This document shows positions 1 through 24,890 of a DNA stretch of 31,158 bases, in pieces. Positions within the stretch are counted from its first letter, which is position 1. Every line of letters starts with the position of its first letter. The notes beneath the pieces were generated by a model. That model searched no databases, was not told the origin of the DNA, and worked only from the letters and a program-made list of their open reading frames with translations. The translations under genes and the position numbers were made by a program. The stretch comes from a virus. The DNA is taken from positions 1 to 31,158 of the IMG/VR virus record IMGVR_UViG_3300009423_000019; one strand, written 5' to 3'.

Positions 1-2
1 GT

Positions 3-41
3 AACCAAGAACTCAAAGACAGAGGATACAACATCTTATGA
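3..41 (+). CDS. C-terminal end of an upstream gene (partial)
   Basis: The third frame is open from the window edge and ends NQELKDRGYNIL at a TGA that overlaps the next start as ATGA (38-41). The overlap is the same style seen elsewhere in this genome, which favours this frame over the first frame, which also stays open to 45. Only 12 residues are visible, so no function can be given. Confidence 0.4.
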   Translation, partial: NQELKDRGYNIL

Positions 42-304
42 GTGAAGAATTTATGCGTGTAACTGTAAACGACAAAGAGTTTGTCGTGATGAAGCAAGTA
101 ACGGCCGAGACTGATAAATCCCGTACATTCCGATTTACAACTGAAGTTGATGGTAAGGAGCGTGGGTTTACATCAACGCTTGAATCTAGTTTTGAAGAAA
201 CTATGATGAGAGAGCATGGACTAAACGCTGAAGAAGAATTAATGCTAATATTAGAGTATGAATTCAAAGCTGAACTACAGAAATTTGTTGACAACCCCGT
301 CTAA
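38..304 (+). CDS. Small acidic protein of unknown function
   Basis: An 88-residue protein starts at ATG 38, with GAGGAT about 9 bases upstream, and ends at TAA. It is acidic and mixed alpha/beta in appearance, with no membrane segment, signal peptide or cysteine motif. I do not recognise the family. It overlaps the upstream gene by 4 bases and precedes the recombination nuclease genes, so it is probably part of the early replication/recombination operon. The last codons overlap the -35 box of the promoter that serves gp47. It looks real because of its position, ribosome site and codon use like its neighbours. Confidence 0.7.
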   Translation: MSEEFMRVTVNDKEFVVMKQVTAETDKSRTFRFTTEVDGKERGFTSTLESSFEETMMREHGLNAEEELMLILEYEFKAELQKFVDNPV

Positions 305-315
305 CCTGTTATAAT
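288..315 (+). promoter_or_regulatory. Host-type (sigma70) early promoter for gp47-gp46
   Basis: TTGACA at 288-293 and TATAAT at 310-315, separated by 16 bases, are both perfect consensus hexamers. The start codon of gp47 (342) lies about 20 bases downstream of the expected transcription start. The -35 box lies inside the end of the preceding small gene. This suggests early transcription by unmodified host RNA polymerase. Confidence 0.8.
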
Positions 316-341
316 CATTATATTAATTTGAGGTCGCACTC

Positions 342-1361: not shown

Positions 1362-3133
1362 TGATCAGAATCAAAAACATCACAATCAAGAACTTTATGA
1401 GTGTGGGCAACGTGACCCAAGCTGTAAATTTCCAGGAGGCTGGGCTCACTCTTGTGCTCGGCAACAACCTTGATTTAGGTGGTGATGGAAGCCGTAACGG
1501 TGTTGGTAAAACAACATTAATCAATGCCCTCAGCTATGCGCTATACGGCAATGCCATTACAAACATCCGCAAAAACAACCTAATCAACAAGACCAATAAT
1601 AAGGGCATGTTGGTAACGGTTGAATTTTCAGTGAACAGCATAAACTATCGTGTTGAGCGTGGGCGCAGTCCTAATGTGCTCAAATTCTTGGTAAACGATC
1701 ATGATGCAGTTGAAGAAACTGACGAAGGTCAAGGCGAAATGCGCCTTACCCAGCTAGAGATTGAACGAGTGTTTGGTATGAGTCACATCATGTTTAAGCA
1801 CCTGATAGCACTTAACACCTATAACGAACCATTCCTTGCACTGAGTGCTAACAATCAGCGTGATATTATTGAGAACCTACTAGGTATCACAATGCTGAGT
1901 GAGAAGGCAACAGTGTTAAAAGAGTTGCTCAAAACTACTAAAGATCAAATCAAGGAAGAAGAGTATAGGATCAAGGGCGTAGAAAATGCAAACGAACAAA
2001 TTAACAAAACAATTGACGATTTATGCCGCCGCCAGAGGGTCTGGAAAAAGCGAAATGACGAGACAGTGGTTGATTTGGAAAAGTCAGTCCAAGAATTGGA
2101 ATCACTCGACCTCAAGTATGAGCTGGCTCAGCATGTGGCGCTTGACAGCTATAAGCAAATCAGTTCTGAGTTGGCTGACTATAACAAAGCCGTTGCTGGT
2201 TTCGAGTCCGAAATTCTCAGAGAAAAACGTAACTTTGACCAAGCTCAAAAAGACCTTAAGGCTGCTCAAGACCATAAGTGCTACGCATGTGGGCAAGATC
2301 TCCACGACGACGCCAATATTTCAATCATCGAGAGAAAGTCACAGGCCGTTGAGTCGGCAGAAGTTGCTCAACAAATTGCACAAGAAGCAATCAGTGAAAT
2401 CCAGGATGAAATTCAGGGGCTAACCCTTCCAGATAAAATTCCAGTTACTAAATACGCAACGGCGCAGGAAGCGTATGAGCAACAGAGTCAGCTTACAACC
2501 TTAAAAAGTAAGCTAGATGATACTCGAAATGCTGAAGATCCGTATGTTGACCAGATTCAAAGTCTTGGAAAAACTGGTCTTCAGCCGATAGAATGGGATA
2601 GAATGAATCAACTGCACAACTTGCGTGAGCATCAGGAGTTTTTACTCAAGCTGCTCGTCAACAAAGACAGCTTTATCCGCAAGCGCATCATTGAACAAAA
2701 CCTACAATACCTCAACGGTCGACTCAACTACTACCTCAACAAGCTTGGCTTGCCACATGAGGTTGTATTCCAAAGTGATCTTAATGTAGAGATTACTGAA
2801 CTTGGACGTGAGTTAGACTTTGACAATTTAAGCCGAGGAGAAAGAAATAGGCTGATCCTCGGTCTCAGCTGGGCGTTCCGTGACGTTCACGAAAGCACAA
2901 ATACACCAATTGACTTTATGGCTATCGACGAATTGATTGATAGTGGCATGGACTCAAATGGTGTTGAAAGCGCACTTGTTGTGCTAAAGAAAATGCACCG
3001 TGATCGTGACAAAAACATCTTCCTTATCTCACACCGTGAGGAATTAATTGGACGTGTTAACAACACACTCTATGTTGTAAAAGAAAACGGATTTACCAGC
3101 TTCAGCCCTGACCAGGAGTTTGACATTGAGTAA
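1361..3133 (+). CDS. 46: gp46-like recombination ATPase subunit (SbcC/Rad50 family)
   Basis: This is the SMC-like ATPase partner of gp47. The N-terminal lobe has a Walker A motif (GSRNGVGKTT, 43-52). A long coiled-coil region follows, with a CxxC zinc hook at C307-C310. The C-terminal lobe has the ABC signature (LSRGER, 490-495), Walker B with catalytic glutamate (D518 to E524, with the sequence AIDE) and a switch histidine in ISHREE (H558). At 590 residues it is close to T4 gp46 (about 560). The coil is short compared with cellular Rad50, as in other phage members. It starts at ATG 1361, overlapping the gp47 stop by one base. A host-type promoter for downstream genes lies over its last codons. 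Confidence 0.95.
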   Translation: MIRIKNITIKNFMSVGNVTQAVNFQEAGLTLVLGNNLDLGGDGSRNGVGKTTLINALSYALYGNAITNIRKNNLINKTNNKGMLVTVEFSVNSINYRVERGRSPNVLKFLVNDHDAVEETDEGQGEMRLTQLEIERVFGMSHIMFKHLIALNTYNEPFLALSANNQRDIIENLLGITMLSEKATVLKELLKTTKDQIKEEEYRIKGVENANEQINKTIDDLCRRQRVWKKRNDETVVDLEKSVQELESLDLKYELAQHVALDSYKQISSELADYNKAVAGFESEILREKRNFDQAQKDLKAAQDHKCYACGQDLHDDANISIIERKSQAVESAEVAQQIAQEAISEIQDEIQGLTLPDKIPVTKYATAQEAYEQQSQLTTLKSKLDDTRNAEDPYVDQIQSLGKTGLQPIEWDRMNQLHNLREHQEFLLKLLVNKDSFIRKRIIEQNLQYLNGRLNYYLNKLGLPHEVVFQSDLNVEITELGRELDFDNLSRGERNRLILGLSWAFRDVHESTNTPIDFMAIDELIDSGMDSNGVESALVVLKKMHRDRDKNIFLISHREELIGRVNNTLYVVKENGFTSFSPDQEFDIE

Positions 3134-3148
3134 AAATAGTGCTACAAT
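3120..3148 (+). promoter_or_regulatory. Host-type promoter inside the end of gp46
   Basis: TTGACA (3120-3125) and TACAAT (3143-3148) have an ideal 17-base spacer. The -35 box lies in the last codons of gp46. It would start a transcript near 3155, serving the unknown small gene and the nuclease after it independently of the gp47-gp46 transcript. Confidence 0.7.
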
Positions 3149-3470
3149 TAACCCATGTAAGGAAATTTCCTTATCAAATAATACATCCACGATGAGTGGA
3201 ACCACATATATCCCAACCAGTAACTGGTCCAGTGACTGGAATACAGTTAGTGTAACGGGAACTGGTTTAACGTCTAGTCCTGACCAGACCAGGCAGTATT
3301 GGATCGGAGATGATCCAAATTATTATCACACTAACCCCCAGTATACTGGCACTGACCCAAGGGCAGGTTCAATTACAATTAAAACTTCTGATATTGGTGT
3401 TGAAGATGATACTATATATTCAGGGCGAGGTGTTGGACCAGCATTGGCAGAGATATTAAATGACCTCTAA
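3126..3470 (+). CDS. Unknown small protein between gp46 and a nuclease
   Basis: The protein is about 114 residues and rich in Ser, Thr, Asn and Tyr, with a C-terminal GRGVGPALAEILNDL. I do not recognise it. The start is uncertain. TTG 3126 has AGGAG ending 7 bases upstream, a good ribosome site. TTG 3120 is too close to that site, and ATG 3192 has no visible ribosome site but lies downstream of the promoter at 3120-3148. Its end overlaps the nuclease start by 11 bases. The low-complexity N-terminal half and the switch to the polar composition of structural proteins are unlike the early genes around it. Confidence 0.6.
   Translation: MSKNSATINPCKEISLSNNTSTMSGTTYIPTSNWSSDWNTVSVTGTGLTSSPDQTRQYWIGDDPNYYHTNPQYTGTDPRAGSITIKTSDIGVEDDTIYSGRGVGPALAEILNDL
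3158..3173 (+). promoter_or_regulatory. 16-bp perfect palindrome at the transcription start (operator candidate)
   Basis: TAAGGAAATTTCCTTA is a perfect inverted repeat lying 10-25 bases downstream of the -10 box of the promoter at 3120-3148. A repressor bound here would block initiation or escape; alternatively it forms a small hairpin at the 5' end of the message. No protein in the window can be linked to it. Confidence 0.4.
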
Positions 3471-3969
3471 AAGTAAAGCAAAAGGTGGTGCATGGGAACG
3501 TGACGTCGCCAATTATTTAAGTAATGTATATGACAAACCATTCATGAGGGTTCCAAATAGCGGGGCTTACACCGGCGGCATGAACGCTTTCCGGAAAACA
3601 ACCATGAGTGAGGGTCAAATACGACATATGAAAGGTGACATTGTTCCACCAGATGATTGGAATTTTTTCAATTGTGAGTGTAAGAACTATGCCAGCTTCC
3701 CATTCCATCGCTTACTTTTTAATGAACGAGTACCTCAACTTGAGGACTGGTTAGGACAGATACGTGATGCTGCTGACCCAGGCGACGTAAACATTCTATT
3801 CATGAAGATTACTCGTGTTGGTAAGTTTGTAGCATTTGAAACAACACAACCATTCGTCGCACATCGTGCAGTAACATATATTGACGATGCGACTTGGGAA
3901 TGGAAAATTACAGAGTTCGATAGCTTTTTCGATCTCAATACTACGGCGTTTGCAAAAGCGCACGAATGA
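3460..3969 (+). CDS. PD-(D/E)XK nuclease, Holliday-junction-resolvase-like
   Basis: This 169-residue protein has the active-site layout of archaeal/RecU-type junction resolvases and related PD-(D/E)XK nucleases: an N-terminal KGGAWERDVANYL helix with E13, then R30-VPNSG, GDIVPP with D60, and CECKNY with E73-x-K75. The catalytic lysine and acidic residues are all present. It sits directly after gp47/gp46, so a role in cleaving branched recombination intermediates is likely, perhaps doing the job of T4 endonuclease VII (gp49), which belongs to a different fold. The family is clear; the exact substrate is inference. The start ATG overlaps the preceding gene, which suggests coupled translation. 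Confidence 0.75.
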   Translation: MTSKSKAKGGAWERDVANYLSNVYDKPFMRVPNSGAYTGGMNAFRKTTMSEGQIRHMKGDIVPPDDWNFFNCECKNYASFPFHRLLFNERVPQLEDWLGQIRDAADPGDVNILFMKITRVGKFVAFETTQPFVAHRAVTYIDDATWEWKITEFDSFFDLNTTAFAKAHE

Positions 3970-4292
3970 TTGCCTTTGGACTTTAGGCATAAAAACTGAA
4001 AGTCTACTGAACGGCTAATATAGGCTAATTGAGACCACCTCCAGAACCCTGACCATAGCGACCCCGCAAAATGCCTTGAGAAGGCGCAACTTAACCATTG
4101 CGTTGACAGAACTGGCATGTCGCAGTCATCTACGCACTGGTTTGACACCCAGAAAATGAGTAAGCTCTTCTGACAATTGAAACTTACAGGCAGCGTCGTG
4201 TTATCATAACAGCACTCCGTGGTCCCGCGTTGAGAGTAGAATGTAAAAGGGTATCGCTCAACCGCCCTTAACCTGGCTATACAAGGTTTTTC

Positions 4293-4301
4293 TGTTATGA
4301 T
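4293..4301 (+). promoter_or_regulatory. Extended -10 promoter candidate for a structured RNA
   Basis: TGTTATGAT fits the extended -10 pattern TG-n-TATnAT and lies just upstream of the run of hairpins that starts at 4305. The -35 region 17 bases upstream (CTGGCT) is poor, which extended -10 promoters tolerate. Confidence 0.35.
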
Positions 4302-4304
4302 GTG

Positions 4305-4405
4305 GCTCGTTACGACGAGTTGGTGACGGTAAATGCCGACAGCTTAACCATGCTTAGCCGATTTCAGGCTAAGTGTGGTTATTGGTTCTGGTAAATAGCC
4401 AATAG
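4305..4405 (+). ncRNA. Candidate structured RNA: four consecutive hairpins
   Basis: Four stems follow each other almost without gaps. They are CTCGT-TACG-ACGAG (4306-4319); GTTGGT with GCCGAC (4319-4340); a 15-bp stem at 4345-4359 and 4367-4381 with a 7-base loop; and ATTGGTT with AGCCAAT (4381-4403). Adjacent stems share one border base, so borders would breathe or stack. Several pairs are G-U only when read on the + strand (two in the 15-bp stem, two in GTTGGT/GCCGAC), which favours + strand transcription. The boundaries of the RNA are unknown and it may extend over much of 3970-4597. No known class is recognised. Confidence 0.45.
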
Positions 4406-4597
4406 TAAGCTTCGCCGTATATTAAAGCTTTTAATCACGATATAATATACATTTTCTAAACCAAAAAACATGTTGAGAGCAAATCGAATCGGAATGAAAC
4501 GAAGTGGAATGGAGATGAGAGATGCGATGCAACAGATAGTCCGAAGGACTATCCAATAGGATGAATTTATATTACGGTTGACGGAGTTCTGCCTTAA

Positions 4598-4891
4598 TTA
4601 TCGAGATTCTGATCTAGTTGGCGCAGGTCCTTGTGGACCATTAACTTGTCCTGGTGTCATTTTCATTTGCTTTTGTTTATTAGGATCGCTTGCTGCTACC
4701 TTTTCTTCCAAAACCTGTAAAAGTATTTTGCGTTCATTATGACTCATATGCACGAGGTCAGCATACGGCATGGATGCAGCAATACTAAGTTGCATTAATG
4801 ATTTAGTTAACTTGTCACGTTCACTGTCATAACGCTCAACTATCTCGACTACCTCGTGATATTCAGTAGTTTTGGCTAGTTGAGATCGAAA
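4598..4891 (-). CDS. 51: gp51-like tail/baseplate assembly extension, expressed by -1 frameshift
   Basis: This frame is open from inside the end of the hub gene (a stop in this frame lies at 4904-4906) to TAA at 4598. Entered by a -1 shift after TTT at 4891-4893, it adds 97 residues to the first 278 of the hub protein, giving about 375. The added part is charged and helical, for example ERYDSERDKLTKS, then MPYADLVHMSHNERKILLQVLEEKV, and ends in a Pro/Gly/Gln-rich tail. An internal ATG at 4795 could give a 65-residue product but has no ribosome site. Position and size suggest the T4 gp51 role (catalyst of hub assembly); the frameshift arrangement matches the G/GT-type tail-assembly chaperones of other phages. 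The gp51 name is tentative. Confidence 0.65.
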   Translation of the reverse strand, partial: FRSQLAKTTEYHEVVEIVERYDSERDKLTKSLMQLSIAASMPYADLVHMSHNERKILLQVLEEKVAASDPNKQKQMKMTPGQVNGPQGPAPTRSESR

Positions 4892-4897
4892 AAATTT
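4835..4897 (-). promoter_or_regulatory. Programmed -1 ribosomal frameshift signal
   Basis: On the minus strand the hub gene reads GCA AAT TTT TTC, containing the slippery heptamer A AAT TTT (4897-4891), which fits X XXY YYZ. Six bases later a stem starts: CTCAACTA (4884-4877) pairs perfectly with TAGTTGAG (4842-4835). An inner 5-bp stem, ACTAC (4870-4866) with GTAGT (4852-4848), lies in its loop. The zero-frame stop TAG (4878-4876) begins inside the 5' arm. Heptamer, spacer and stem all match established -1 frameshift sites. Confidence 0.8.
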
Positions 4898-5724
4898 GCA
4901 GGGTCAAAATTCACCTCCATTGTATTTTCTGTTTTACATGATTCACACACGAATTTAAAAGTTCGATCAATTGTTTCAGCACTAATAGTAGCTAATTTAT
5001 CTCTAATCAGCTTATATTCAGGCGCTTTGATTTTGTTTAGCCATTCGTCAATAAACGTTTGGTCAGACACTTCATCTTGGTTTGGTAACAGAATTTTGAT
5101 AATAGATTCACGTGCAATACTAAATAATTCATTGGCACTCAACTTAACATCATTAGTCATCTTATCTTGTAATCTCGCAAGTAATTCTGATTGATCAGAA
5201 TTAACATGTGATTGTAATTGTCGCGCGGTCCGCTGGATACTAAGCATGTAATCATTAAGTCTGTTTTGGCTTTTGATTGAGTATGGCTTTATATGCACCA
5301 TTAACTCGCCAACTTTAACAACATTGTCCTCTGGAATTGATTTCATTGTGCTTAAAATTTGTGTTAAGTCAACGCCATAATTTTCAATGTTGCTACATTT
5401 TTTACATTTAGCCTCAACTTGTAAATCTTTACTATAAGTTATAACTCGTAATGCGAGTAACAATACATCTAAGTCAGGCTTAGGTATTTCGTTTGCATCT
5501 TTTATGCCAGGCACAGTACGTTGCAACACTTTAACAAGACTTTCATTGTTAAGTAGTCCATCTGGGTTTTGAAAATGCAACTCGTCAATAGCGTTCATTG
5601 GAAATACTTCAATTTCATCATCCGCTGACATGCGCGGGCGCTCTGAGTAAAATCTACCTTGACTTGGAAGTTTAACGTACATACCTGTCTGGGTATAAAA
5701 TTCTGATAGTGGATTATTTGTCAC
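4876..5724 (-). CDS. 26: gp26-like baseplate hub protein (T4_baseplate family)
   Basis: This 282-residue protein resembles the T4 gp26 family: an N-terminal KLPSQGRFY (18-26), an EIEVFPMNAIDELHF segment (37-51), and a region with LALRVITYS (90-98). Two Cys pairs, CKKC (107-110) and CESC (260-263), could bind a metal together. GTG at 5724 is preferred as start: AAAGGAT lies about 7 bases upstream and a late promoter lies at 5768-5775. Longer starts further upstream would begin ahead of that promoter. The gene is opposite to its right neighbour, the tape-measure-like gene. A frameshift signal near its end makes a longer fusion product. T4 gp26 is about 208 residues, so this one is longer. Confidence 0.85.
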   Translation of the reverse strand: MTNNPLSEFYTQTGMYVKLPSQGRFYSERPRMSADDEIEVFPMNAIDELHFQNPDGLLNNESLVKVLQRTVPGIKDANEIPKPDLDVLLLALRVITYSKDLQVEAKCKKCSNIENYGVDLTQILSTMKSIPEDNVVKVGELMVHIKPYSIKSQNRLNDYMLSIQRTARQLQSHVNSDQSELLARLQDKMTNDVKLSANELFSIARESIIKILLPNQDEVSDQTFIDEWLNKIKAPEYKLIRDKLATISAETIDRTFKFVCESCKTENTMEVNFDPANFFDLN

Positions 5725-5738
5725 TGCTTGATCCTTTT

Positions 5739-5746
5739 GATAAATA
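5739..5746 (+). promoter_or_regulatory. T4-type late promoter (+) for the tape-measure-like gene
   Basis: GATAAATA differs from the T4 late consensus TATAAATA at one base and lies 49 bases upstream of ATG 5796. It faces the minus-strand element at 5768-5775, so the two transcripts would overlap at their 5' ends. Confidence 0.65.
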
Positions 5747-5767
5747 CAATATAAGCTTGGGTATATG

Positions 5768-5775
5768 TATTTATC
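5768..5775 (-). promoter_or_regulatory. T4-type late promoter (-) for gp26/gp51-like genes
   Basis: On the minus strand this reads GATAAATA, identical to the facing plus-strand element. It lies 43 bases upstream of the GTG start at 5724, which supports that start choice. Confidence 0.65.
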
Positions 5776-5795
5776 CATAATAAAAGTAGTATATA

Positions 5796-7967
5796 ATGGC
5801 AAATATTGAAATTCCTATAGGCACGACTGGCGAAGTATTTAAAGTACCACAGTGGGCAACTGAAGAAACTCAACAAGATATTTTGGCTGCACTCAGCCCT
5901 GAAAGTCCAGCTGGCAAGAAAAAAGCTAAAGCTGAAGGCGATGCAACAAAAAGTATTGGTAACCTTAGCAAGGCGGCAACAGACACAAAGGAAAAATTTA
6001 AAGGTTTAGGTAAAACTGCTGAACGAGTGGGCGGCAAGCTTGAGGGCATTGAAGCAAGTGCAAAGAGCGTAACAGATGGACTACTTGGTGTTGTCGGCGG
6101 AATGGGCGCACTAGGCGGCGCCGCTGGTTTTGCTGCTGGTACATTTGATGCATTTGTTGATGCGCAAGTTTCTGCTATTCAAAGTGGTTTTAGTTTTAGT
6201 GATCAACTTATTGAAAGCCGTAAAGAACTAGCAAATATTGGTCTTAATTTTACTCAATTTAGTACAATACTTGCAAATAATGGTGATGCATTGCGCAGCT
6301 TAGGTGTGACTGGTGCTGAATCAGCTACAAGGTTTAAAGACCTCGTAATGGTGACCCGTGATATGACTGATCATATGGGCAATTATGGGTATGTAAGTGA
6401 AGAAATAGCGGGCCAGCTTGCTGAATTAACTGGTACTCTTGTCAAAGCAGGTATAACTGGTGACGAATTATTTGGCGGCGCGGCTGATAGCTTTACTATC
6501 TTAAACAGAGAAGTGCTTGGATATGCGCGTATTACTGGTCGCAATTCACGTGACATGATGCGTAACCGCGCCGCTGTTGACGCCGATCCTATGTTTATGA
6601 GCATGATGGGTGAATTTGGCGCAAGTGGTATTACCGCAGCCCAAGGTATGACTGATATGGCAACCGCCACATTTGGAGAGGCAAGTTCTGGTATTATTGA
6701 AATACTTAAAGCTGCTACTGTTGAAGCTAAGACAGGCATGCCTATGATGAGCGCAGAAATGATGGCCACATTGGAAATGACAGGATTAAGGGAGTTCGTC
6801 ACACAGTATGGTAAAGATATACTTGCCGCTGCCGGTGATTCTGAAGCCGCTGCTAGAGTCAATAGAGACTTCGCCTTCAATACGTCCAAACACCTGCAAG
6901 AACAAGAAGTGTATATAAGAGAACAATCCCAAATTTTCAACGCTGGTGGCGTAGCCGGACCATTAGCAGCTGAATTTGGACTATTAATGCAAGCCGTTGT
7001 AGAGAGCCGATTAACGGCCGCCGCTGCAAATGACCCAGGACGCGCCACAAACTTTGCAGAGACTATGGATGATACAACAGAAAAATTAATTAGTTTCCGT
7101 AATGAACTAGAAGTGTTCCTTCAAAATCTTAGAGCAGGCGTATTAGCAGCATTTGGTGTTGAAGATTTTGTAGCACTTGACACTCTTGATTTTGAAAAAT
7201 GGGGGCGTGAACTTAATACAATAATAGAAGATATGTTAGCCTGGAAAGAATACTTGTTTGGTGATGATGGTATAGGTGTTGCAACTATAGTCGCAGGTAT
7301 AGCTGCTTTATGGATAGCACCAGCTGTTATCGCAGCCATGGTAGCTGGAATTTCAAGTTTGTTTGCTGCTAAAGCCCTTACGACCGCCCTAACTGCTGGT
7401 GCAGCGACGACAGCCGCAACAGGCACAGCAGCTGGAACTGGTATGGCTGCAAGGGCCGCCGCCGCAGGCCGCGGCGCACTAAACTTAGGAAAAAAAATTC
7501 CTGGTTATGGTACTGCTATTGCTGCTATTATGGGGATGGCTGATGAAGAATTTATCGAAGCTGACTTTAACTTAATATCACGTAGCCTATTAGGTATTAC
7601 TGAAGCATTATTAGAAGTTGGTGATATTGGCGCAAACCTTGTTACTGGTGCTGCAGGAGTAGTTGGTATAGGTCCAGGGTATGATAACGACTTAGATATG
7701 AGTCAAGCAATGAGAGATTATGCAACCGCACCACACGAACCAATTCCTGCATTTGATCCAGCGTCCCAACGTATAGATAGCAATCATATGATTATTCAAG
7801 GTGCACAAACACAACAAGATGGATCAATTCAAACAGACATAAATGCAGATAATGCCTGGCGTCACGGAAGCCGCGGCGAGGAATACTTGCGGCAATTGAC
7901 ATCAGCTATGGAAGAAGGCAATCGCCTTATGCGTCGTCAACTTGACGCAATCGAAAATAATGGCTAA
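5796..7967 (+). CDS. Tape-measure-like tail protein (gp29-type role)
   Basis: The 723-residue protein is Ala/Gly-rich and mostly helical. A polar N-terminal coil region (about 50-85) is followed by a Gly/Ala hydrophobic patch (about 90-115). A long helical middle leads to a strongly hydrophobic stretch (about 490-545) with small residues, and a charged C-terminus ends in EEGNRLMRRQLDAIENNG. Hydrophobic segments in a long helical protein beside tail-assembly genes are typical of tape-measure proteins. If it spans the tail at about 1.5 angstrom per residue the tail would be near 110 nm, similar to T4. Direct similarity to T4 gp29 could not be judged by eye. A late promoter lies at 5739; the ribosome site (AAAAGTAG) is weak. 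Confidence 0.6.
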   Translation: MANIEIPIGTTGEVFKVPQWATEETQQDILAALSPESPAGKKKAKAEGDATKSIGNLSKAATDTKEKFKGLGKTAERVGGKLEGIEASAKSVTDGLLGVVGGMGALGGAAGFAAGTFDAFVDAQVSAIQSGFSFSDQLIESRKELANIGLNFTQFSTILANNGDALRSLGVTGAESATRFKDLVMVTRDMTDHMGNYGYVSEEIAGQLAELTGTLVKAGITGDELFGGAADSFTILNREVLGYARITGRNSRDMMRNRAAVDADPMFMSMMGEFGASGITAAQGMTDMATATFGEASSGIIEILKAATVEAKTGMPMMSAEMMATLEMTGLREFVTQYGKDILAAAGDSEAAARVNRDFAFNTSKHLQEQEVYIREQSQIFNAGGVAGPLAAEFGLLMQAVVESRLTAAAANDPGRATNFAETMDDTTEKLISFRNELEVFLQNLRAGVLAAFGVEDFVALDTLDFEKWGRELNTIIEDMLAWKEYLFGDDGIGVATIVAGIAALWIAPAVIAAMVAGISSLFAAKALTTALTAGAATTAATGTAAGTGMAARAAAAGRGALNLGKKIPGYGTAIAAIMGMADEEFIEADFNLISRSLLGITEALLEVGDIGANLVTGAAGVVGIGPGYDNDLDMSQAMRDYATAPHEPIPAFDPASQRIDSNHMIIQGAQTQQDGSIQTDINADNAWRHGSRGEEYLRQLTSAMEEGNRLMRRQLDAIENNG

Positions 7968-7970
7968 ATA
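7963..7970 (+). promoter_or_regulatory. Possible late promoter for the portal gene
   Basis: GCTAAATA overlaps the stop codon of the tape-measure-like gene and lies 25 bases upstream of the portal start. It keeps the TAAATA core of the other late elements but differs at the first two bases, so it is weaker evidence. Confidence 0.4.
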
Positions 7971-7994
7971 GAAGCAAATAGGATAATAAACATA

Positions 7995-8909
7995 ATGTCA
8001 TGGAAAAAACACTTCCAAACCTACAATGGCACACAAAGCCCGATTAGTGGTGACGCCCGCAATCGTGACCGTAACACATCTACACGATTCCAAAGCTGGC
8101 TACCTGAAGTATATGTAGGTCAGCCTAACCGTCTTGAGCGATATGTACAGTATGATCAGATGGATATGGACAGTGAAATTAACACTGCACTAGATACAAT
8201 TGCTGAATTTTCAACACAACAAGACGAAGAAACAGAAACTCCATTTAAAATCAAATGGAATGATAGCCCAACAGAGACTGAAAGCGATGTGTTAGCAACA
8301 GTACTCAAGCAGTGGTGCCGCGTTAATGACTGGAACCGTCGTCTATTCAATACATTCCGCAACACAATCAAATACGGCGACCAGCCTTTTGTGCGTGATC
8401 CAGAAACTTGGAAACTGTTTTATGTTAACCCAAGCGATGTTATGCGTGTTATTGTTGATGAAGCAAATGGTAAAGAGCCAGCACAATACATCCTTAAAAA
8501 CCTTGATCCAAACTTCCAAACTTTGACAGCAACTACCCCGCAAGGTAGTTCTGGATATGCAGGGGCAGGAATTAGCCCAAGCACAATGGTCAACAGTACA
8601 CAGAACCGTAATATGGGACAGGTGAACGCTGCATCAGGAATGAACAGTGATGTAGAACACCAAGTAGATGCTAAACATGTTATTCACATGGCACTGACTG
8701 ATGGAATGGACATGAGCTGGCCTTTTGGTAACAGTATTCTAGATGCAGTATTCAAAACTTACAAGCAAAAAGAACTACTTGAAGACAGTATTATCATTTA
8801 CCGTGTACAACGTGCACCTGAGCGCCGCATCTTCTACATTGACGTAGGTGATATGCCAGCGCACCAGGCTATGAGCCATGTTGAGCGTGTTAAAAACGAG
8901 ATCCACTAG
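7995..8909 (+). CDS. 20: Portal vertex protein gp20, N-terminal part up to an in-frame amber codon
   Basis: The portal forms the dodecameric ring through which DNA enters the head and to which neck and tail attach. This part is 304 residues and has typical T4-superfamily portal sequence: RYVQYDQMDMDSEINTALD near residues 49-67, WNRRLFNTFRNTIKYGDQ, then RVQRAPERRIFYIDVGDMP and HVERVKNEIH. It starts at ATG 7995, with AGGAT upstream, and is stopped by TAG at 8907-8909. The same frame continues without interruption into the rest of the portal (to 9707), so the two parts together equal one 570-residue protein, close to T4 gp20 (about 524). No insertion or base slip is needed, only one codon change. 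Confidence 0.9.
   Translation: MSWKKHFQTYNGTQSPISGDARNRDRNTSTRFQSWLPEVYVGQPNRLERYVQYDQMDMDSEINTALDTIAEFSTQQDEETETPFKIKWNDSPTETESDVLATVLKQWCRVNDWNRRLFNTFRNTIKYGDQPFVRDPETWKLFYVNPSDVMRVIVDEANGKEPAQYILKNLDPNFQTLTATTPQGSSGYAGAGISPSTMVNSTQNRNMGQVNAASGMNSDVEHQVDAKHVIHMALTDGMDMSWPFGNSILDAVFKTYKQKELLEDSIIIYRVQRAPERRIFYIDVGDMPAHQAMSHVERVKNEIH
8907..8909 (+). other. In-frame amber codon in the portal gene
   Basis: The sequence reads ATC CAC TAG CGC CGT ATC, in frame with portal coding on both sides (KNEIH-stop-RRIPSRTGGGSN). One C-to-T change of a CAG glutamine codon would produce it. The base after the stop is C, a context known to weaken termination. TAG ends three other genes here (gp26, the 431-residue protein, a LamG fibre), so it is not generally reassigned. 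Confidence 0.85.
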
Positions 8910-9707
8910 CGCCGTATCCCAAGTAGAACGGGTGGCGGTAGCAACATGATGGACGCACAATATAACCCGCTTTCAATCATGGAAGACTATTTCTTCGCAC
9001 AGACAGCGGAAGGACGTGGATCAAAAGTTGATACACTGCCCGGCGGTGATAACCTAGGCGATATTGATGATCTCAAGTTCTTTAACAACAAACTTGCAAG
9101 AGGTCTACGTATTCCGTCAAGCTACCTACCTACTGGTCCTGACGATGGAACTGCAACATTTAATGATGGGCGTGTTGGTACTGCCTTTATTCAGGAATAT
9201 AGGTTCACACAATACTGCCAGCGTTTGCAACGTATGGTACAGCCAACATTTGATAAAGAGTTTAAGATGTTCCTCAAGCATCGTGGATATTCAATTGATT
9301 CTAGCCAGTTTGAACTAGACTTTGTAGAGCCACAGAGCTTTAGTGATTACAGAGAAATTGAAATCAACGGAGCCCGCGCTGGTGTCTTTGGTCAGTTGGA
9401 AGGAATTGACTATATGAGTAAGCGATTTGCACTCAAGAAATATCTACAATTGAGCGAGGATGAAATCCTTGAAAATGAAAAGATGTGGAAGCAAGAAAAC
9501 CCAATTAAGGATGTCGCTGGCTCCGGTGTTGATAATGATGAATTTAGCGACTTGGGTAGTGTAGGCGTCCAAGGCGGTGCTGATGGAAGTCTTGATGACT
9601 TTGAGGCAGATCCAGATGAATTTGGTGATGATGAGCTAGCAGATACAGCTGGTGATGAAGGCGAATCAGCAATTAGCGGTGCTGAGGGAGAGGATGAAAC
9701 AAGATGA
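8910..9707 (+). CDS. 20: Portal vertex protein gp20, C-terminal part after the amber codon
   Basis: This is the in-frame continuation of the portal. It carries a highly typical portal block, ending in EDYFFAQTAEGRGSKV, then LPGG and GDIDDLKFFNNKLARGL, then IPSSYLP (about 9000-9130), followed by the wing/crown helices and a very acidic C-terminal tail (about the last 60 residues). If read alone, translation could start at ATG 8946 or 8949, but GGTGGCGG upstream is in coding sequence and is not a convincing ribosome site. A separately started fragment could not build a normal portal ring. The stop TGA overlaps the next start as ATGA. Confidence 0.85.
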   Translation, partial: RRIPSRTGGGSNMMDAQYNPLSIMEDYFFAQTAEGRGSKVDTLPGGDNLGDIDDLKFFNNKLARGLRIPSSYLPTGPDDGTATFNDGRVGTAFIQEYRFTQYCQRLQRMVQPTFDKEFKMFLKHRGYSIDSSQFELDFVEPQSFSDYREIEINGARAGVFGQLEGIDYMSKRFALKKYLQLSEDEILENEKMWKQENPIKDVAGSGVDNDEFSDLGSVGVQGGADGSLDDFEADPDEFGDDELADTAGDEGESAISGAEGEDETR

Positions 9708-9916
9708 AAAGCAGAGAATTCTTAAAAGAATATTATGATGAGAAGGACGACAACTATATGACGGTTAATATTGACCATCACCGCCGTCCACGTATTACAT
9801 TGCGCCACTTGCAAAAGCTGCGCAAAACACGAAGCATTGAAGATCTGGAGCAAAAGCAGAGAATCGATGACGTAGCATATATCTACGGGCGCCCAGACGC
9901 TGAAGCTGATCTTTAA
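9704..9916 (+). CDS. Small basic protein of unknown function in the head module
   Basis: A 70-residue protein overlaps the portal stop by 4 bases. It is rich in Arg, His, Asp and Glu (IDHHRRPRITLRHLQKLRK), so it is helical and charged. In T4 this place between gp20 and gp21 holds the small prohead core genes 67 and 68, but this sequence lacks the strong acidity of gp67 and I cannot assign it. Being locked into the portal reading by the overlap suggests a role in head assembly. Confidence 0.65.
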   Translation: MKSREFLKEYYDEKDDNYMTVNIDHHRRPRITLRHLQKLRKTRSIEDLEQKQRIDDVAYIYGRPDAEADL

Positions 9917-9925
9917 GGGTAGGCT

Positions 9926-11221
9926 ATGCGTTTTATTGAATTTGGATTATTTGAAGGCTATAAAGAAGTCACACAGAAGTTTTCACAGGATAATGATCCT
10001 GCGGCAGTTAAAGACGTTATAACAACATATCGCGATCTTGTCAACCGAAATCAAGTTCAAGGCAACGAAAGAAATATTGACTGGTGGGGCAAGCAAGGCT
10101 GGGGACAGTTTGAAAAGTTTGTTACAGCTAAGAGTCAACAGTCAAGTCAAAACCAACAGAAAAAACGCTCAAAGACTGGAAAAAGTCATAACCTTGCAGA
10201 AACAAATGAATGGCTGGTTGTAATACCGCTTGACAAGGACGCAAGTTGTTTTCACGGCAAAGGCACTGACTGGTGTACTACAAAGCCAGCACACGACTAT
10301 TTTGAGCAGTATTTTAGAGACAACAGCATAACTTTAATCTACTTTTTACACAAGCAAACAGGCAAGAAATGGGCTGCCGCAGTACACTTGGACACAGATC
10401 ACATTGAATGGTTTGACATAAATGATAGAGAAATCAATATAAGAACGTTTTCAAGCCAAAGCGGCATCTCTGTTGAAACTGCGCAAAAATATATTGATAT
10501 GGTATTAGATAAGTCTTCAGACGCTTCTAAGAAAGCTGGCTCTGCACGTGAAATAATGGTAAAAGACTTGCAAACACTTGAGCAACTTCTTGATGATTTT
10601 CAGGATGCTGGCGGCGGCAAGCGTTCCGTGGAAATCGAAACACTATTGCTAAAAACAAAACATAAAGAGTTGTTACTCAAATACATCCGGTTGCTTTCAA
10701 AAGGTCCTATAGAGTTTGATCAAAATATGCAAACACTGATAGCAACACAAGCCGGATTCGGACTGAAAAAGATTGCAAATCTAACTGAAAAGACAGTAAG
10801 AATTGCGTTAAAAAATAGCCCAGATGCACTCGATTGGATTATAGATGCAGCACCAGAAATGACTGCAGAAATTTTTACTCAAGATCCATCAACTATTCCA
10901 GACATACATGAAGTAAGACGAATCGAGGATATACCTCCAAGATTTCAAGAAATCTTTATAAACGCGGCAGGGATATGGGCAGTTGCGTTTGGTAATGATC
11001 TTGATCCTAAGCTTAAAGAGAAAGCCAATGCATCCCTCAAAAAATGGTTTAAAGACAACCCAGAAATCGTAGCCGTTGTTACAGAACCTGGGTTAACTGA
11101 TCTAAAATGGATGGACGAGTTGACACAAGAAAAAAATCAAGCAGCCGTCGACAGATTCGGCGGTGACGCGTATGAAGTTATGACACGAGATTTAAAGATA
11201 CTCACGCCGAACGATATGTAG
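9926..11221 (+). CDS. Unknown 431-residue protein with a GKGTDWCTT domain, inside the head module
   Basis: The start ATG has AAGGGTAGG upstream. Residues about 93-170 form a compact domain, EWLVVIPLDKDASCFHGKGTDWCTT, then FEQYFRDN, then a beta-rich ITLIYFLHKQTGKKWAAAVH and a closing WFDINDREI. I have seen GxGTxWCT-type domains in other phage proteins without known function. A Gln/Lys/Ser-rich linker (70-88) precedes it, and a helical, repeat-like C-terminal half (about 205-431) follows. No T4 head gene has this sequence. The position between portal and core protein suggests a packaged or head-assembly-associated protein, or a late-transcribed passenger. The stop is TAG. Confidence 0.75.
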   Translation: MRFIEFGLFEGYKEVTQKFSQDNDPAAVKDVITTYRDLVNRNQVQGNERNIDWWGKQGWGQFEKFVTAKSQQSSQNQQKKRSKTGKSHNLAETNEWLVVIPLDKDASCFHGKGTDWCTTKPAHDYFEQYFRDNSITLIYFLHKQTGKKWAAAVHLDTDHIEWFDINDREINIRTFSSQSGISVETAQKYIDMVLDKSSDASKKAGSAREIMVKDLQTLEQLLDDFQDAGGGKRSVEIETLLLKTKHKELLLKYIRLLSKGPIEFDQNMQTLIATQAGFGLKKIANLTEKTVRIALKNSPDALDWIIDAAPEMTAEIFTQDPSTIPDIHEVRRIEDIPPRFQEIFINAAGIWAVAFGNDLDPKLKEKANASLKKWFKDNPEIVAVVTEPGLTDLKWMDELTQEKNQAAVDRFGGDAYEVMTRDLKILTPNDM

Positions 11222-11368
11222 AAGATTACTTAGTCAGGTAGGCCACCGAATTAAAACACACTTTTTGCCCTTTTTCATGCCTTTTTACAAGGTAAGGCAC
11301 TTTGTTTTGTAAATACACTTGAAGTAATGCAAAACAGTGCCCCATGAGGGGTATTTAGGAGTGTGATA
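11222..11368 (+). promoter_or_regulatory. Leader of the acidic core protein gene with late-like element and hairpin
   Basis: TGTAAATA (11308-11315) is a weak match to the late promoter pattern. A hairpin, TGCCCC-ATGA-GGGGTA (11338-11353), ends 3 bases before the AGGAG ribosome site at 11357-11361 and could influence its use. T-rich repeats (CTTTTT twice) and a TGCCTT/AAGGCA inverted repeat at 11278-11299 lie upstream. A terminator is not evident. Confidence 0.35.
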
Positions 11369-12262
11369 ATGACAAAATCAAAACTAGAAAAAGTGCTTGA
11401 GTACATGGTAAATGGCGAGAAAGACCTCGCTAGCGAAATGCTACATGAGCACATCATTGAATCAGCACGCGAGATCTATGCAGATCTTGCTGAAGAAGAT
11501 GAAATGGTAGAAGAAGAGCTAGAGCTAGACGAAGACGAAGATCTTGACGACGAAGATGACGAAGACCTTGACGAAGCTTTCCGTGACGATAACTCAAGCG
11601 GCGACTTTGAAGACGATTTGGACTCAATGGAAGACGAACTAGAAACTGAAGAGTATTTTGGTGAGAATGGCGATGAGGAAGAAGAGGACGACGAAGCTAT
11701 GGACGACCTAGAAGGCGAAATGGACATGGATATGGACATGGACATGGATGCTGAAATGGGCGACGACATGGGCGGCGAAGGCGACGCAGAAAATGCTATG
11801 CAGAACGTTGAAGATGCTATGGACGAACTTAAGGCTGTTTTTGCAGACCTTATTGGTGACGACATGGGCGACGAAGAAGGCATGGATGATGATGTTGCTG
11901 ACGAATTCGACGACATGGAAATTGGCGACGAAGTTGAGGACGACGAGTCCGATGACGACATGGAAGAAAGCTTTTACGAAGAAGACGACCTAGAAGAAGC
12001 AGCAACGCTTAAGAAGCACGCTGTTACTATGAAGGGCGACGACGACGGTAAAGCATCACCATTGAAGCAAAATCAACCAAACATTAGCGACAAAGGCAAA
12101 GCAGTAAACTTTGCTGGCGGTAGCGATGAAAAAGGTGGTAAAGGCGATTCAGCTAAAAAGATGAATGTAACTGGACCACAAGAACAAAAGGGTAAGATGG
12201 ACAAGAAAGTTTCTAAGCCATCCAACTCAAGTGCTAAAGCCAAATCTAATATTGGCAGCTAA
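11369..12262 (+). CDS. Extremely acidic prohead core protein (gp67-like)
   Basis: ATG 11369 is preferred, 7 bases after AGGAG. The 297-residue protein has three parts. A short helical N-terminus (1-45, KLEKVLEYMVNGEKDLASEM) resembles the start of small core proteins. A long Asp/Glu/Met stretch (about 46-205) includes the MDMDMDMDMD repeat. The C-terminus is basic and Lys/Ser/Gly-rich (about 211-297). The boundary carries L-E-E (208-210) followed by A, a match to the gp21 cleavage pattern L-x-E. T4 gp67 is a small acidic prohead core protein cut by gp21 to an internal peptide, so a similar fate is inferred. It stands directly upstream of the protease gene. Homology to gp67 is by architecture only. 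Confidence 0.7.
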   Translation: MTKSKLEKVLEYMVNGEKDLASEMLHEHIIESAREIYADLAEEDEMVEEELELDEDEDLDDEDDEDLDEAFRDDNSSGDFEDDLDSMEDELETEEYFGENGDEEEEDDEAMDDLEGEMDMDMDMDMDAEMGDDMGGEGDAENAMQNVEDAMDELKAVFADLIGDDMGDEEGMDDDVADEFDDMEIGDEVEDDESDDDMEESFYEEDDLEEAATLKKHAVTMKGDDDGKASPLKQNQPNISDKGKAVNFAGGSDEKGGKGDSAKKMNVTGPQEQKGKMDKKVSKPSNSSAKAKSNIGS

Positions 12263-12274
12263 AGGAAACGATTG

Positions 12275-12910
12275 ATGTTTAAACCACTACGAGAAGTAAT
12301 TGCACCGGATGCAGCGAAAATTACCACTGAAAGCCATGACGACGGCAAAGGTGGTAAGGATCTCTACATGCAGGGCATTTTCATCCAAGGTGATAAACGC
12401 AATCAAAATCAAAGAGTTTATCCCGTTAATGAAATCGCAAGCGCCGTAAAGACGCTTAAAGAAAAGATTAACGGGGGATACTCAGTCCTTGGTGAAGCAG
12501 ATCATCCTGATGATCTCAACATTAATATCGACCGCGTTTCACACGCAATTGTTGACATGGATATGCGTGGCAATGACGGTATTGGTAAACTAAAAATGTT
12601 GCCCACTCCGATGGGCAATATATGCAAAACACTACTTGAAAGTGGTGTAAAGCTCGGAGTCAGTTCACGTGGATCTGGCAACGTTGATGGTTCTGGCAAT
12701 GTGTCAGAATTTGAAATTGTTACAGTTGATATCGTAGCAAACCCAAGTGCACCAGATGCATACCCGGACCCGATTTATGAGCAAATCATGAATCACCGAC
12801 GTGGCAGCACATTTTGGGACGTAGCAGAAAGCGTTAACCATGATTCCAAAGCACAGAAGTATCTCAAAGAAGAGATGATTCGATTTATCCAAGACCTAGG
12901 GAGAAAATAA
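12275..12910 (+). CDS. 21: Prohead core protease gp21
   Basis: This serine protease lies inside the prohead core and cleaves scaffold and capsid proteins during head maturation. The 211-residue length matches T4 gp21 (212). Visible features are NQRVYP (45-50), GEADHPDD with the likely catalytic H77, and GVSSRGSG (128-135) with the nucleophile serine in the SS pair, followed by the VDIVANPSAPDA segment. ATG 12275 is chosen over TTG 12272 because it lies 7 bases after AGGAA. It sits between the acidic core protein and the scaffold, the order expected for the T4 head module. Its gene has 12 bases of spacing from the preceding stop and 2 bases to the next start. Confidence 0.93.
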   Translation: MFKPLREVIAPDAAKITTESHDDGKGGKDLYMQGIFIQGDKRNQNQRVYPVNEIASAVKTLKEKINGGYSVLGEADHPDDLNINIDRVSHAIVDMDMRGNDGIGKLKMLPTPMGNICKTLLESGVKLGVSSRGSGNVDGSGNVSEFEIVTVDIVANPSAPDAYPDPIYEQIMNHRRGSTFWDVAESVNHDSKAQKYLKEEMIRFIQDLGRK

Positions 12911-12912
12911 CA

Positions 12913-14034
12913 ATGCCTAAGTCATTTAATGAAATTCTCGGCAGCGACGTTCTAAATGAAGAACTTCAGTCAGAACTAAATGAGGCGTTTGAAGCACGTA
13001 TTGCTGAAGAACGCGAAACACTGACAGCTGAATTGCGTGAAGAATTTGCAGGACGTTATGAAAATGACAAATCGCAGATTGTAGAAGCAATGGACGCTAT
13101 GTTGTCCGAAGCCATCAAGACTGAGCTCGAAGAGTTCGCTCAAGATAAAGCAAAGGTTGCTGAAGACCGTGTTCGTTATAAGCGAGCGGTTAAAGAGCAC
13201 ACTAAAATGCTTGAAGGTTTCCTAAACGAAGTTCTTGCAAAAGAAATTCGTGAGCTGCGCGGGGATCGCAAAACACAAAAGGCTAATTTTGGTAAGCTAG
13301 AAGAGTTTGTTCTCAAGCAGCTATCCAAAGAACTAAACGAATTCCACGATGACAAACGTGCTCTAGCCGAGCAGAAAGTCAAAATGGTTCGCGAAGGTCG
13401 AAAAGTTATTGAAGAAGCAAAGCGTAACTTCGTTAAGAAGGGTGCTGCGCAACTCGAAACCATGGTAGAAGGCGTTATGCGCAAAGAGCTAACTGCTCTA
13501 CGTGAAGACGTACAATCTGCTAAAGAAAACGAGTTCGGACGTAAGATTTTTGAAACATTCGCAAGCGAGTTTATGACTAGCACACTGAGTGAATCAACTC
13601 AGGTTGCAAAACTTGCAAAAGAAATAATGAACCTTAAGCAGAAAGTTGCAGAGTCTAACGATGCAATGACTACTAAGGATCAACAGCTCACTGAAGCACG
13701 ACGTAAAGCTAAGATCGCAACTGATCTCAGCGAGCGTAAGCAAATTATGAGCGAAATGCTTGGACCTCTAAACAAAGGCCAGAAAGAACTAATGGGAACA
13801 CTACTTGAGTCCGTCAAAACTGCACAGTTGAAGATGGCTTATAAGAAGTACCTCCCAAGTGTACTTTCAGAAGATGCTAATGTGAAGACACAGGCAACAA
13901 CAAAGGCTAAACTCACCGAAAGCCGTGGTAATACACGTTCAGTAAACGGTGATAAAGTCAACAAGGGCGCAGTGCAAGATGCACGTAGCTCAGCTGATAT
14001 TATTGAACTAAAGAAATTGGCAGGACTTAGCTAA
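12913..14034 (+). CDS. 22: Prohead scaffold (core) protein gp22
   Basis: A 373-residue, almost wholly helical, highly charged protein with heptad-like spacing, typical of the T4 gp22 scaffold that fills the prohead and is later degraded by gp21. It is longer than T4 gp22 (about 269). Several L-x-E protease-type sites occur, including LTES near residue 338, the same four residues as the predicted site in the capsid protein. The C-terminus ends in a short helix SADIIELKKLAGLS, which in scaffolds commonly contacts the shell. The ribosome site GGGAG lies in the last codons of gp21. Confidence 0.9.
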   Translation: MPKSFNEILGSDVLNEELQSELNEAFEARIAEERETLTAELREEFAGRYENDKSQIVEAMDAMLSEAIKTELEEFAQDKAKVAEDRVRYKRAVKEHTKMLEGFLNEVLAKEIRELRGDRKTQKANFGKLEEFVLKQLSKELNEFHDDKRALAEQKVKMVREGRKVIEEAKRNFVKKGAAQLETMVEGVMRKELTALREDVQSAKENEFGRKIFETFASEFMTSTLSESTQVAKLAKEIMNLKQKVAESNDAMTTKDQQLTEARRKAKIATDLSERKQIMSEMLGPLNKGQKELMGTLLESVKTAQLKMAYKKYLPSVLSEDANVKTQATTKAKLTESRGNTRSVNGDKVNKGAVQDARSSADIIELKKLAGLS

Positions 14035-14046
14035 AGGAAAAAGAAA

Positions 14047-15207
14047 ATGGCAGACGTTCTATTTGAAAACTGGGCAGCAACCAAAGGTGCACTCACCGAC
14101 GGTCTAACCGGTAATAAAAAAGCAGTGATGGAGACTGTGCTTGAGAATACTAAGCGCGGACTTACAGAATCTGCATCCATCGGCGCAACATCCGCTGGTA
14201 ACATTGCGACACTTAACAAAGTGATCCTACCTGTTATCCGCCGTGTTATGCCTACAGTGATCGCAAACGAGCTAGTTGGTGTTCAGCCAATGACAGGCCC
14301 AGTTGGTCAGATCCACACACTTCGCGTTCGTTACGCGGAAACTTATGACTCAGCAGTAGCAGGCGATGAGGCACTTAGCCCATTTGCAATTGCAAGCGGT
14401 TACTCTGGTAATGCAGCAACCAACCGTGCTGACGCAACTTCAATTCTTGAAGGTCAAGCAGGTCGTAAACTAAACATTCAGGTCCTAAAGCAGACCGTCG
14501 AAGCAAAAACTCGTAAGCTCAGCGCACGTTGGACTTTTGAGGCAGCGCAAGACGCACAAGCTATGCACGGCCTAGATGTTGAAGCAGAAATCATGGCAGC
14601 ACTTGCTCAAGAGATTACTGCTGAAATCGACCAAGAGATCATTGCATCTCTAGTTAGCCTAGCAGGCGCGACAGCTGGTACATATGACCAGAACGCGGTA
14701 TCTGGTACAGCAACATTTGTTGGTGACGAACATGCAGCACTTGCAGTTCTAATTAACAAAGCAGCTAACGACATTGCATCACGCACACGTCGTGGCGCTG
14801 GTAACTGGATGGTTGTATCACCTACAATCCTTACAGTTCTCCAGGCAGCAACTACAAGCGCGTTCGCTCGTACAACTGAAGGTCCTTTCGAGGCACCAAC
14901 AAATACGAAGTTCGTTGGTACACTAAACGGCTCTATGCGTGTTTATGTTAACCAGTATGCATCAGACGATAACATCCTTATCGGCTACAAAGGTTCAAAC
15001 GAGACAGATGCAGCGGCGTTCTATTGCCCATACATCCCTCTAATGAGCTCAGGCACAGTGCTTGACCCAAGCACATTCGAGCCAGTAGTTAGCTTCATGA
15101 CACGTTACGGCTATGTAGAACTAAGCAACCAGGCTTCATCTCTTGGTAATGCAGCAGACTACCTTGCAGCAATCGCTGTTACAACTGCAAACCTAAGCTT
15201 CACATAA
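14047..15207 (+). CDS. 23: Major capsid protein gp23
   Basis: The 386-residue protein is recognisable as T4-type gp23 by NKVILPVIRRVMPTVIANEL then VGVQPMTGPVGQIHTLRVRY near residues 57-97 and by its place after gp21-gp22. The N-terminal propeptide is predicted to end at LTE (39-41) before SASIGATSAGNIA, matching the gp21 L-x-E rule; this leaves a mature shell protein of about 345 residues. It is much shorter than T4 gp23 (521), probably lacking the surface insertion domain of T4. The ribosome site is AAAGGA. A strong terminator follows the gene, consistent with very high expression. Confidence 0.95.
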   Translation: MADVLFENWAATKGALTDGLTGNKKAVMETVLENTKRGLTESASIGATSAGNIATLNKVILPVIRRVMPTVIANELVGVQPMTGPVGQIHTLRVRYAETYDSAVAGDEALSPFAIASGYSGNAATNRADATSILEGQAGRKLNIQVLKQTVEAKTRKLSARWTFEAAQDAQAMHGLDVEAEIMAALAQEITAEIDQEIIASLVSLAGATAGTYDQNAVSGTATFVGDEHAALAVLINKAANDIASRTRRGAGNWMVVSPTILTVLQAATTSAFARTTEGPFEAPTNTKFVGTLNGSMRVYVNQYASDDNILIGYKGSNETDAAAFYCPYIPLMSSGTVLDPSTFEPVVSFMTRYGYVELSNQASSLGNAADYLAAIAVTTANLSFT

Positions 15208-15230
15208 GTTTTAGGACTATAAAGATAATG

Positions 15231-15258
15231 GAACCGGCCCTAGGGCCGGTTCTTTCTT
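15231..15258 (+). terminator. Rho-independent terminator after the capsid gene
   Basis: GAACCGGCCC (15231-15240) pairs perfectly with GGGCCGGTTC (15243-15252), followed by TTTCTT. The two-base gap means the inner pairs open to make the loop. It ends the head module transcript 24 bases after the gp23 stop. Confidence 0.9.
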
Positions 15259-15337
15259 GATTAAAATACTGGTTACGCTTCCACGCCGTCCTAAAATAAT
15301 GGACCCACATACTGTTTAATATACCTTCACTATAAGC

Positions 15338-15345
15338 GATAAATA
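15338..15345 (+). promoter_or_regulatory. T4-type late promoter for the fibre operon
   Basis: GATAAATA, identical to the elements at 5739 and 27401, lies 28 bases upstream of the first fibre gene and downstream of the gp23 terminator, so the fibre genes form a separate late transcription unit. Confidence 0.65.
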
Positions 15346-15373
15346 TCAGGAAGTCAACAGGAATCTGAACTCA

Positions 15374-17056
15374 ATGCCAATTAATATGGATCACCGCCAA
15401 AATATCATTGTTACAGATGATGGCCTATTAGACTTTAATATGACTGGCGGTATATCGATTCCAGTAGGTACAACAGGGCAACGCCCTGGATCTCCTATTG
15501 CTGGTCAGATGCGTTACAATTCCTCGCTTGGTAAATTTGAAGGATATACATCAACTTGGGATACAATTGGTGGAGCAGTTCCAGTGCAGGACGACGGCGT
15601 GTCGGTTGTAGCGGAACCTACGGCCTTTAACTTTACTGGACTAGCTGTTTCTGTTACAAACGTTGGCGGCGTGGCAACAGTTAACGTGCCCGGTAATACT
15701 ACATCTGTGACACCTATTATACGTGACTCAGCTGTAACATGGAAAGATGGATTAACTACAACTTGTCCTATACCAGGCACGGCGGTCGCTGGCGACTTAA
15801 TGATTATCGTAGCTACAGGGGCCTGGTCGCCGATTCCACCAGCTGGGTGGACCACACTTGTTATTCTGACTCAAAATAATCATTTAGGTAGGGCAATGTC
15901 AAAAGTGCTTGACGCCGGAGATATAACTGCAACCGAAGTTTCGATTACTTGGTCTGGAAACTTTGAACATACTTATTCGGTCGTTGTGTTTGAGGGAGAA
16001 TGGAGCGTAGGTGGCGCTGAAGTTACAGGTACCACATCTACAGTTGCTTCGCTTAACCAGCCCGTAACGATTCGTGAAATCGGAAACAAAGCAATTCTAG
16101 TAGGCGCAAACCGCGCTTCAAATTCAAATAATGATGCAGACATCGGAACAGAAATTGCTACAGGAGGAAGCACAAATGCCAGTGCAGCCATTTATGAACT
16201 TACTGAAACAGCAGGCGGCGCCTTTAGCTATAATTGGACATATTCTGTTTCTGGCGCAGCGTCATCATGGTATATCTCAATTGACCCGACGGTAACGTCA
16301 GGAGTGGCAGTTGGGGATTTATATGATGCAGATACAACTTCAACGCCTCCTGCCACAGGAGATGCGCTTATATGGAACGGAGCAGCCTGGGTTCCTGACA
16401 ATGCTGTGACATTGAACACAACAAAGCTTGACGGTATTGCAACTGGCGCAAACCTCTATGTTCACCCAAGCGACGGAGTTGATCCGGGCGCCGCATTAAC
16501 AGGTGCAAACGTATTTTCCGACATAACAGTAAATGCGGCAGGTCACGTAACTGGTTCAACAACAAGGGCAATTACAGGTTCCGATATAGGAATTAATAAA
16601 GCATATGTTGACGCATTGAATGTTGATGCGGATACAATTGACAGTCTCAATAGTTCAGCTTTTGTGCGTTCCGATATAGATGACTTTGTGGGCGGCGTGC
16701 TTTCGTTTAACAGTACATTTTCTCTTAACACCGCCGCCCTTCAAATTTCAACTCTTGCGCAGACAACACTTACTAGCTTTAACAAGGGTGTTTACGGCTG
16801 CGGAAAATTCTTAATTCAAGCGACTGACACTATAACAAGCGAATTACACATAACAGAACTGCTAGTGGTACATGATGGAACAACTGCTAGCGCAACTGAA
16901 TACGGTATTATCCACACTGGCGCATCACCTTTGGCAACATATGATGTTAGTGTTAGCGGAAATGATATTCTCGTGCTTGCAACTTCAGCAAGCGCCTCTT
17001 TCACTGATTACAAGGTTACTGAAATATTAGTATTTGGATATAGTGCTGGCCCATGA
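15374..17056 (+). CDS. Tail fibre / adhesin protein with modular repeats
   Basis: A 560-residue Thr/Ser/Ala/Gly-rich beta-type protein. The N-terminus (1-75, ending in NSSLGKFEGYTSTW) is like attachment domains of fibres, as in RPGSPIAGQMRYN. Residues about 112-303 form a domain with GDLMIIV, PPAGWTTL and a closing WYISIDP; the same layout occurs in the LamG fibre at 17763. Residues about 345-440 are typical fibre repeats (KLDGIATGANLYVHP, INKAYVDALNVDADTID). The C-terminal 100 residues may be the tip or a receptor-binding domain. It is the first gene of the fibre operon and overlaps the next by 4 bases. The exact structure (long, short or side fibre) cannot be told. Confidence 0.75.
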   Translation: MPINMDHRQNIIVTDDGLLDFNMTGGISIPVGTTGQRPGSPIAGQMRYNSSLGKFEGYTSTWDTIGGAVPVQDDGVSVVAEPTAFNFTGLAVSVTNVGGVATVNVPGNTTSVTPIIRDSAVTWKDGLTTTCPIPGTAVAGDLMIIVATGAWSPIPPAGWTTLVILTQNNHLGRAMSKVLDAGDITATEVSITWSGNFEHTYSVVVFEGEWSVGGAEVTGTTSTVASLNQPVTIREIGNKAILVGANRASNSNNDADIGTEIATGGSTNASAAIYELTETAGGAFSYNWTYSVSGAASSWYISIDPTVTSGVAVGDLYDADTTSTPPATGDALIWNGAAWVPDNAVTLNTTKLDGIATGANLYVHPSDGVDPGAALTGANVFSDITVNAAGHVTGSTTRAITGSDIGINKAYVDALNVDADTIDSLNSSAFVRSDIDDFVGGVLSFNSTFSLNTAALQISTLAQTTLTSFNKGVYGCGKFLIQATDTITSELHITELLVVHDGTTASATEYGIIHTGASPLATYDVSVSGNDILVLATSASASFTDYKVTEILVFGYSAGP

Positions 17057-21310: not shown

Positions 21311-21351
21311 ATACTAAATACTAACAATAGCCTATTTGGGGACAGTGAACC

Positions 21352-24452: not shown

Positions 24453-24458
24453 AATAAA

Positions 24459-24881: not shown

Positions 24882-24890
24882 ATTGTATCC

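Follow-up and report, generated by a model that had tools for sequence, protein, structure and literature searches.

An In-Frame Amber Codon in the Portal Gene of a T4-Type Phage Contig: A Probable Isolated Nonsense Change

Results

The sequence analyzed, here called the window, is a whole viral contig from IMG/VR, 31,158 bases long; it is a fragment of a T4-type phage that carries genes for the portal, prohead protease, major head protein and tail sheath, together with other structural genes. The gene of the T4-type portal (gp20) spans 571 codons on the plus strand (7995–9707). It starts with the ATG at 7995 and is interrupted only by a TAG at codon 305 (8907–8909), after which the same frame is open again from 8910 to the TGA at 9705–9707. 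Both halves match Portal_T4 and phrog_213; the upstream part matches positions 3–233 of the Pfam Portal_T4 profile (PF07230; E 1.5e-49), and the downstream part matches positions 238–433 (E 9.7e-51). Because the two halves match adjoining profile positions, this is one portal gene broken by one codon, with no disruption of the frame, in agreement with the initial annotation, which had described a single amber codon in an otherwise intact gene with conserved portal sequence on both sides. The window and the sibling contigs described below each contain only one portal copy.

If the TAG terminates translation, the portal open reading frame ends after 304 amino acids (7995–8909, plus strand). The TAG aligns with approximately residue 310 of T4 gp20, whose clip domain comprises residues 279–358 (PMC4493910). 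The stop thus falls inside the clip domain, which binds the packaging motor, and closes a frame that is intact through this domain in all relatives. Ending at this position, a portal protein would be missing the remainder of the clip, one half of the stem, the crown and part of the wing. Downstream of the TAG, an in-frame open reading frame that starts from an ATG (8946–9707, plus strand) encodes the rest of the portal, and has no clear ribosome-binding site.

TAG terminates three other called genes in the window, at 4876–5802 (minus strand), 9926–11221 (plus strand) and 19463–21310 (plus strand), and each of these codons is soon followed by further stops in the zero frame. The terminal TAG of gene 9926–11221 lies within a few residues of the ends of homologues with 48% identity, and that of the gp26-like gene (4876–5802) is at or near the position where its homologues end in TAG or TAA. 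Coding density reaches 93% under table 11, and only one in-frame TAG is found in conserved genes. The sequence evidence thus shows that TAG is a normal stop codon in this phage and contradicts its general reassignment. The initial annotation had reasoned in the same way, from at least three other genes closed by TAG and from the zero-frame stops after the gp26-like gene, and its conclusion is confirmed. Where relatives of the gp26-like gene or of gene 9926–11221 seemed to contain internal stops, the alignment had overrun the gene, either upstream of its true start or at its final stop codon.

The end of the gp26-like gene has a feature of its own. The terminal residues and stop, NFFDLN-TAG, immediately follow a slippery heptamer, T TTT TTC (4894–4888, minus strand), and the -1 frame past the TAG stays open for 92 more codons (region 4598–4900, minus strand), which show about 45% identity to the corresponding region in relatives. 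The sequence AAATTTTTTC is identical in four relatives (L105–L108), in two of which it directly precedes a TAG. This arrangement has the appearance of a conserved programmed -1 frameshift that would yield a gp26-gp51-like fusion, comparable to the lambda G/GT tail chaperones.

Two other IMG/VR contigs belong to the same phage population as the window, with a sequence identity of at least 99.9%. Contig 3300009074_000009 aligns to positions 1–15,634 (15,634 bp) with 9 differences, and contig 3300025577_000083 aligns to positions 7,277–25,625 (18.3 kb) with 8 differences and one 117-bp duplication. Base 8907 is C in both siblings, giving CAG, and T in the window. A protein search of IMG/VR with the portal returned 70 other loci, of which 65 cover codon 305; all 65 encode Gln at this codon (CAA or CAG), and none of their portals has an internal stop. 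After later loci were added and the two siblings left out, a non-redundant set of 41 distinct local sequences around the codon was obtained, with CAA in 29 and CAG in 12. An exact scan of IMG/VR for the local sequence, with N at the first base of the codon, returned only CAG. A degenerate scan for TAR at codon 305 revealed no other portal stop, its one chance match (L084) lying outside any portal frame. On these comparisons, made in a collection search that may omit records very near the window, the TAG is private to the window contig. Among the GTDB genomes searched, the only relative was a portal of 60% identity on a contig assigned to a Gammaproteobacteria MAG (L104; NZGL01000008.1), a weak hint on the hosts of this phage group that is too little to name a host.

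In the stretch common to the three contigs, three sites are private to the window, all on the plus strand: 8907 (TAG stop; CAG Gln in the siblings and Gln in the outgroups), 10187 in gene 9926–11221 (CAT His; TAT Tyr in the siblings and outgroups), and the synonymous site 10738 (CTG; CTA in the siblings). Two of the sites can be polarized, and at both the window holds the changed state with a non-synonymous effect (Q to stop, Y to H). About 3% of random substitutions in these genes would create a stop codon. Over 11683–25625, the differences between the window and 3300025577_000083 (23696, 24657 and 24660) are all synonymous. This pattern fits errors, or very young deleterious or unselected mutations, on the window side, the numbers being small. 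The window contig is not an error-ridden assembly, because no other conserved gene is broken in it. The two further private sites suggest that the window may be a genuine separate haplotype, so that the T at 8907 could be real.

Two neighbors of the portal gene also vary. Gene 9926–11221 (phrog_17056) is present in only two (L004 and L016) of the close portal relatives whose flanks were examined, and occurs in two copies in each of two other viral contigs. Between the portal and protease genes, gene 11363–12262 encodes a very acidic product; here, 3300025577_000083 carries the in-frame tandem duplication of 117 bp (11555–11682), with an 11-base near-repeat at its bounds, which is either real variation or an assembly artefact.

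The base that follows the TAG is C, which opens an Arg codon shared by about half of the relatives; at this position, 21 of the 41 distinct sequences have C and 20 have A. Since this split is already present among the relatives, the C context predates the stop and was inherited, and does not constitute evidence of selected leakiness. The initial annotation was correct about the C, which it took for a leaky context. RNA folding of the 100 bases downstream of the TAG gave a structure no better than that of shuffled sequences (z -1.06).

Scans for tRNAs covered 31 kb of the phage and a further 22 kb upstream from one sibling contig, the genome being incomplete. Neither the window nor either sibling contig yielded a tRNA, and hence none yielded an amber suppressor; Rfam gave the same result for the window. 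The suppressor tRNA with a CUA anticodon that the initial annotation had proposed to look for was thus not detected in this sequence. Four close large relatives (G004–G007) have no tRNA above the family cut-off; a weak match in G006 overlaps an ARAGORN tmRNA call and was rejected as a suppressor. The distant relative G009 does have tRNAs, with no CUA anticodon among the loci read.

Discussion

Programmed readthrough, producing two portal forms, was one option of the initial annotation, and a TAG with C after it is sometimes held to be a weak stop context. A programmed site would be common to close kin, and this stop is shared with no relative, not even with contigs 99.9% identical. The C belongs to an inherited Arg codon, the next base varies between relatives, and the downstream RNA structure is not unusual, so that the proposal is contradicted and readthrough is very improbable. 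We assign an equally low probability to a split portal, in which translation would stop at the TAG and restart at the ATG at 8946, with the two pieces assembling together. An in-frame ATG-ATG does occur 12–13 codons after the TAG and opens a frame of 253 amino acids; on the other hand, it lacks a clear Shine–Dalgarno sequence, the break would lie within the domain that contacts the packaging motor, and no relative is split at codon 305. The reading of TAG as Gln throughout the phage (table 15) agrees with the residue that the relatives have at this codon. Phages that use table 15, crAss-like phages and others, have numerous in-frame TAGs and a coding density that is low when table 11 is applied, and they often encode a Sup-CTA tRNA (PMC11210395), the amber suppressor tRNA being present in about half of the phages recoded from TAG to Gln (PMC11210395). 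The window resembles them in having TAG where relatives have Gln, and differs from them in its single in-frame TAG in conserved genes and its high coding density; no Sup-CTA tRNA was seen in the part of the genome that the window and its siblings cover. Genes of the window are closed by TAG at homologous C-termini, with several in-frame stops beyond. The probability of a table 15 code is practically negligible.

Suppression of a genuine TAG in a viable phage deserves more weight. Portals are essential: a T4 gene 20 amber mutant forms plaques on a suppressor host and none on a non-suppressor host (PMC7136217). Unless the TAG were suppressed, a genome that carries it should therefore be inviable. 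Laboratory gene 20 amber mutants are like the window in that a TAG in the gp20 portal gene is lethal without a suppressor (PMC7136217); they are unlike it in being deliberate and located in the N-terminal whisker, whereas the present change is a natural or technical C-to-T at a Gln codon of the clip domain in a distant relative. With a host or phage amber-suppressor tRNA that inserts Gln or another residue, a full-length portal would be made. The perfectly kept frame after the TAG and the functional appearance of the rest of the contig are compatible with this, and a suppressor tRNA could be encoded elsewhere in the incomplete genome or in the host. The kept frame is, however, uninformative, because the siblings are nearly identical, and these retain CAG. 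Other in-frame TAGs in conserved genes are absent, and the tRNA scans of the window, its siblings and the relatives covered were negative for a suppressor. Suppression is therefore rated improbable. Slightly less credence still is given to a wild T4-type lineage with a real portal amber, host-restricted or conditionally expressed beside its CAG siblings, that would live on natural suppressor hosts or by an unseen suppressor tRNA. Of the three options in the initial annotation, the Gln codons of the siblings and of all relatives favor an error of CAG over programmed readthrough and over an amber phage that grows on a suppressor host.

The TAG is thus very probably an isolated C-to-T nonsense change that serves no selected function, being either an error in the consensus or a defective allele that is rare. 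A single C-to-T substitution would have converted CAG to TAG at an invariant Gln codon of an otherwise ordinary T4-type portal gene, and the TAG would have entered the consensus of the window contig while being absent from the remaining contigs sampled from this population. The C-to-T transition is the commonest kind of change, both among spontaneous mutations and among those caused by DNA damage or by errors of PCR. In a population, a lethal allele is held close to the mutation frequency, so that its chance appearance in a consensus is unlikely unless coverage is very low; a technical cause is therefore ranked first, a real defective allele second and real suppression after them. We consider it probable that the T is a technical consensus error, through C-to-T damage, PCR error at low coverage or the selection of a minor variant by the assembly. 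That the allele is genuine and rare, carried by a defective genome that would yield a portal fragment of 304 residues cut in the clip domain, is possible and rather unlikely. We infer this preference for a technical over a real origin, and also that the truncated portal would have no function.

The closest parallel is provided by sporadic nonsense variants and consensus errors in metagenome contigs, which are likewise single, private C-to-T changes absent from near-identical contigs, and nothing sets the TAG of the window apart from them. A search of the literature on base errors in metagenome assemblies found nothing specific. As a biological feature, the TAG is either ordinary or artefactual. 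When an essential gene of a phage shows a lone stop in a metagenome contig, caution is called for, and contigs of the same population should be compared before recoding is invoked. If the TAG were real and tolerated, this would be a conditional-lethal phage of natural origin, and would provide evidence that amber-suppressor hosts exist in nature.
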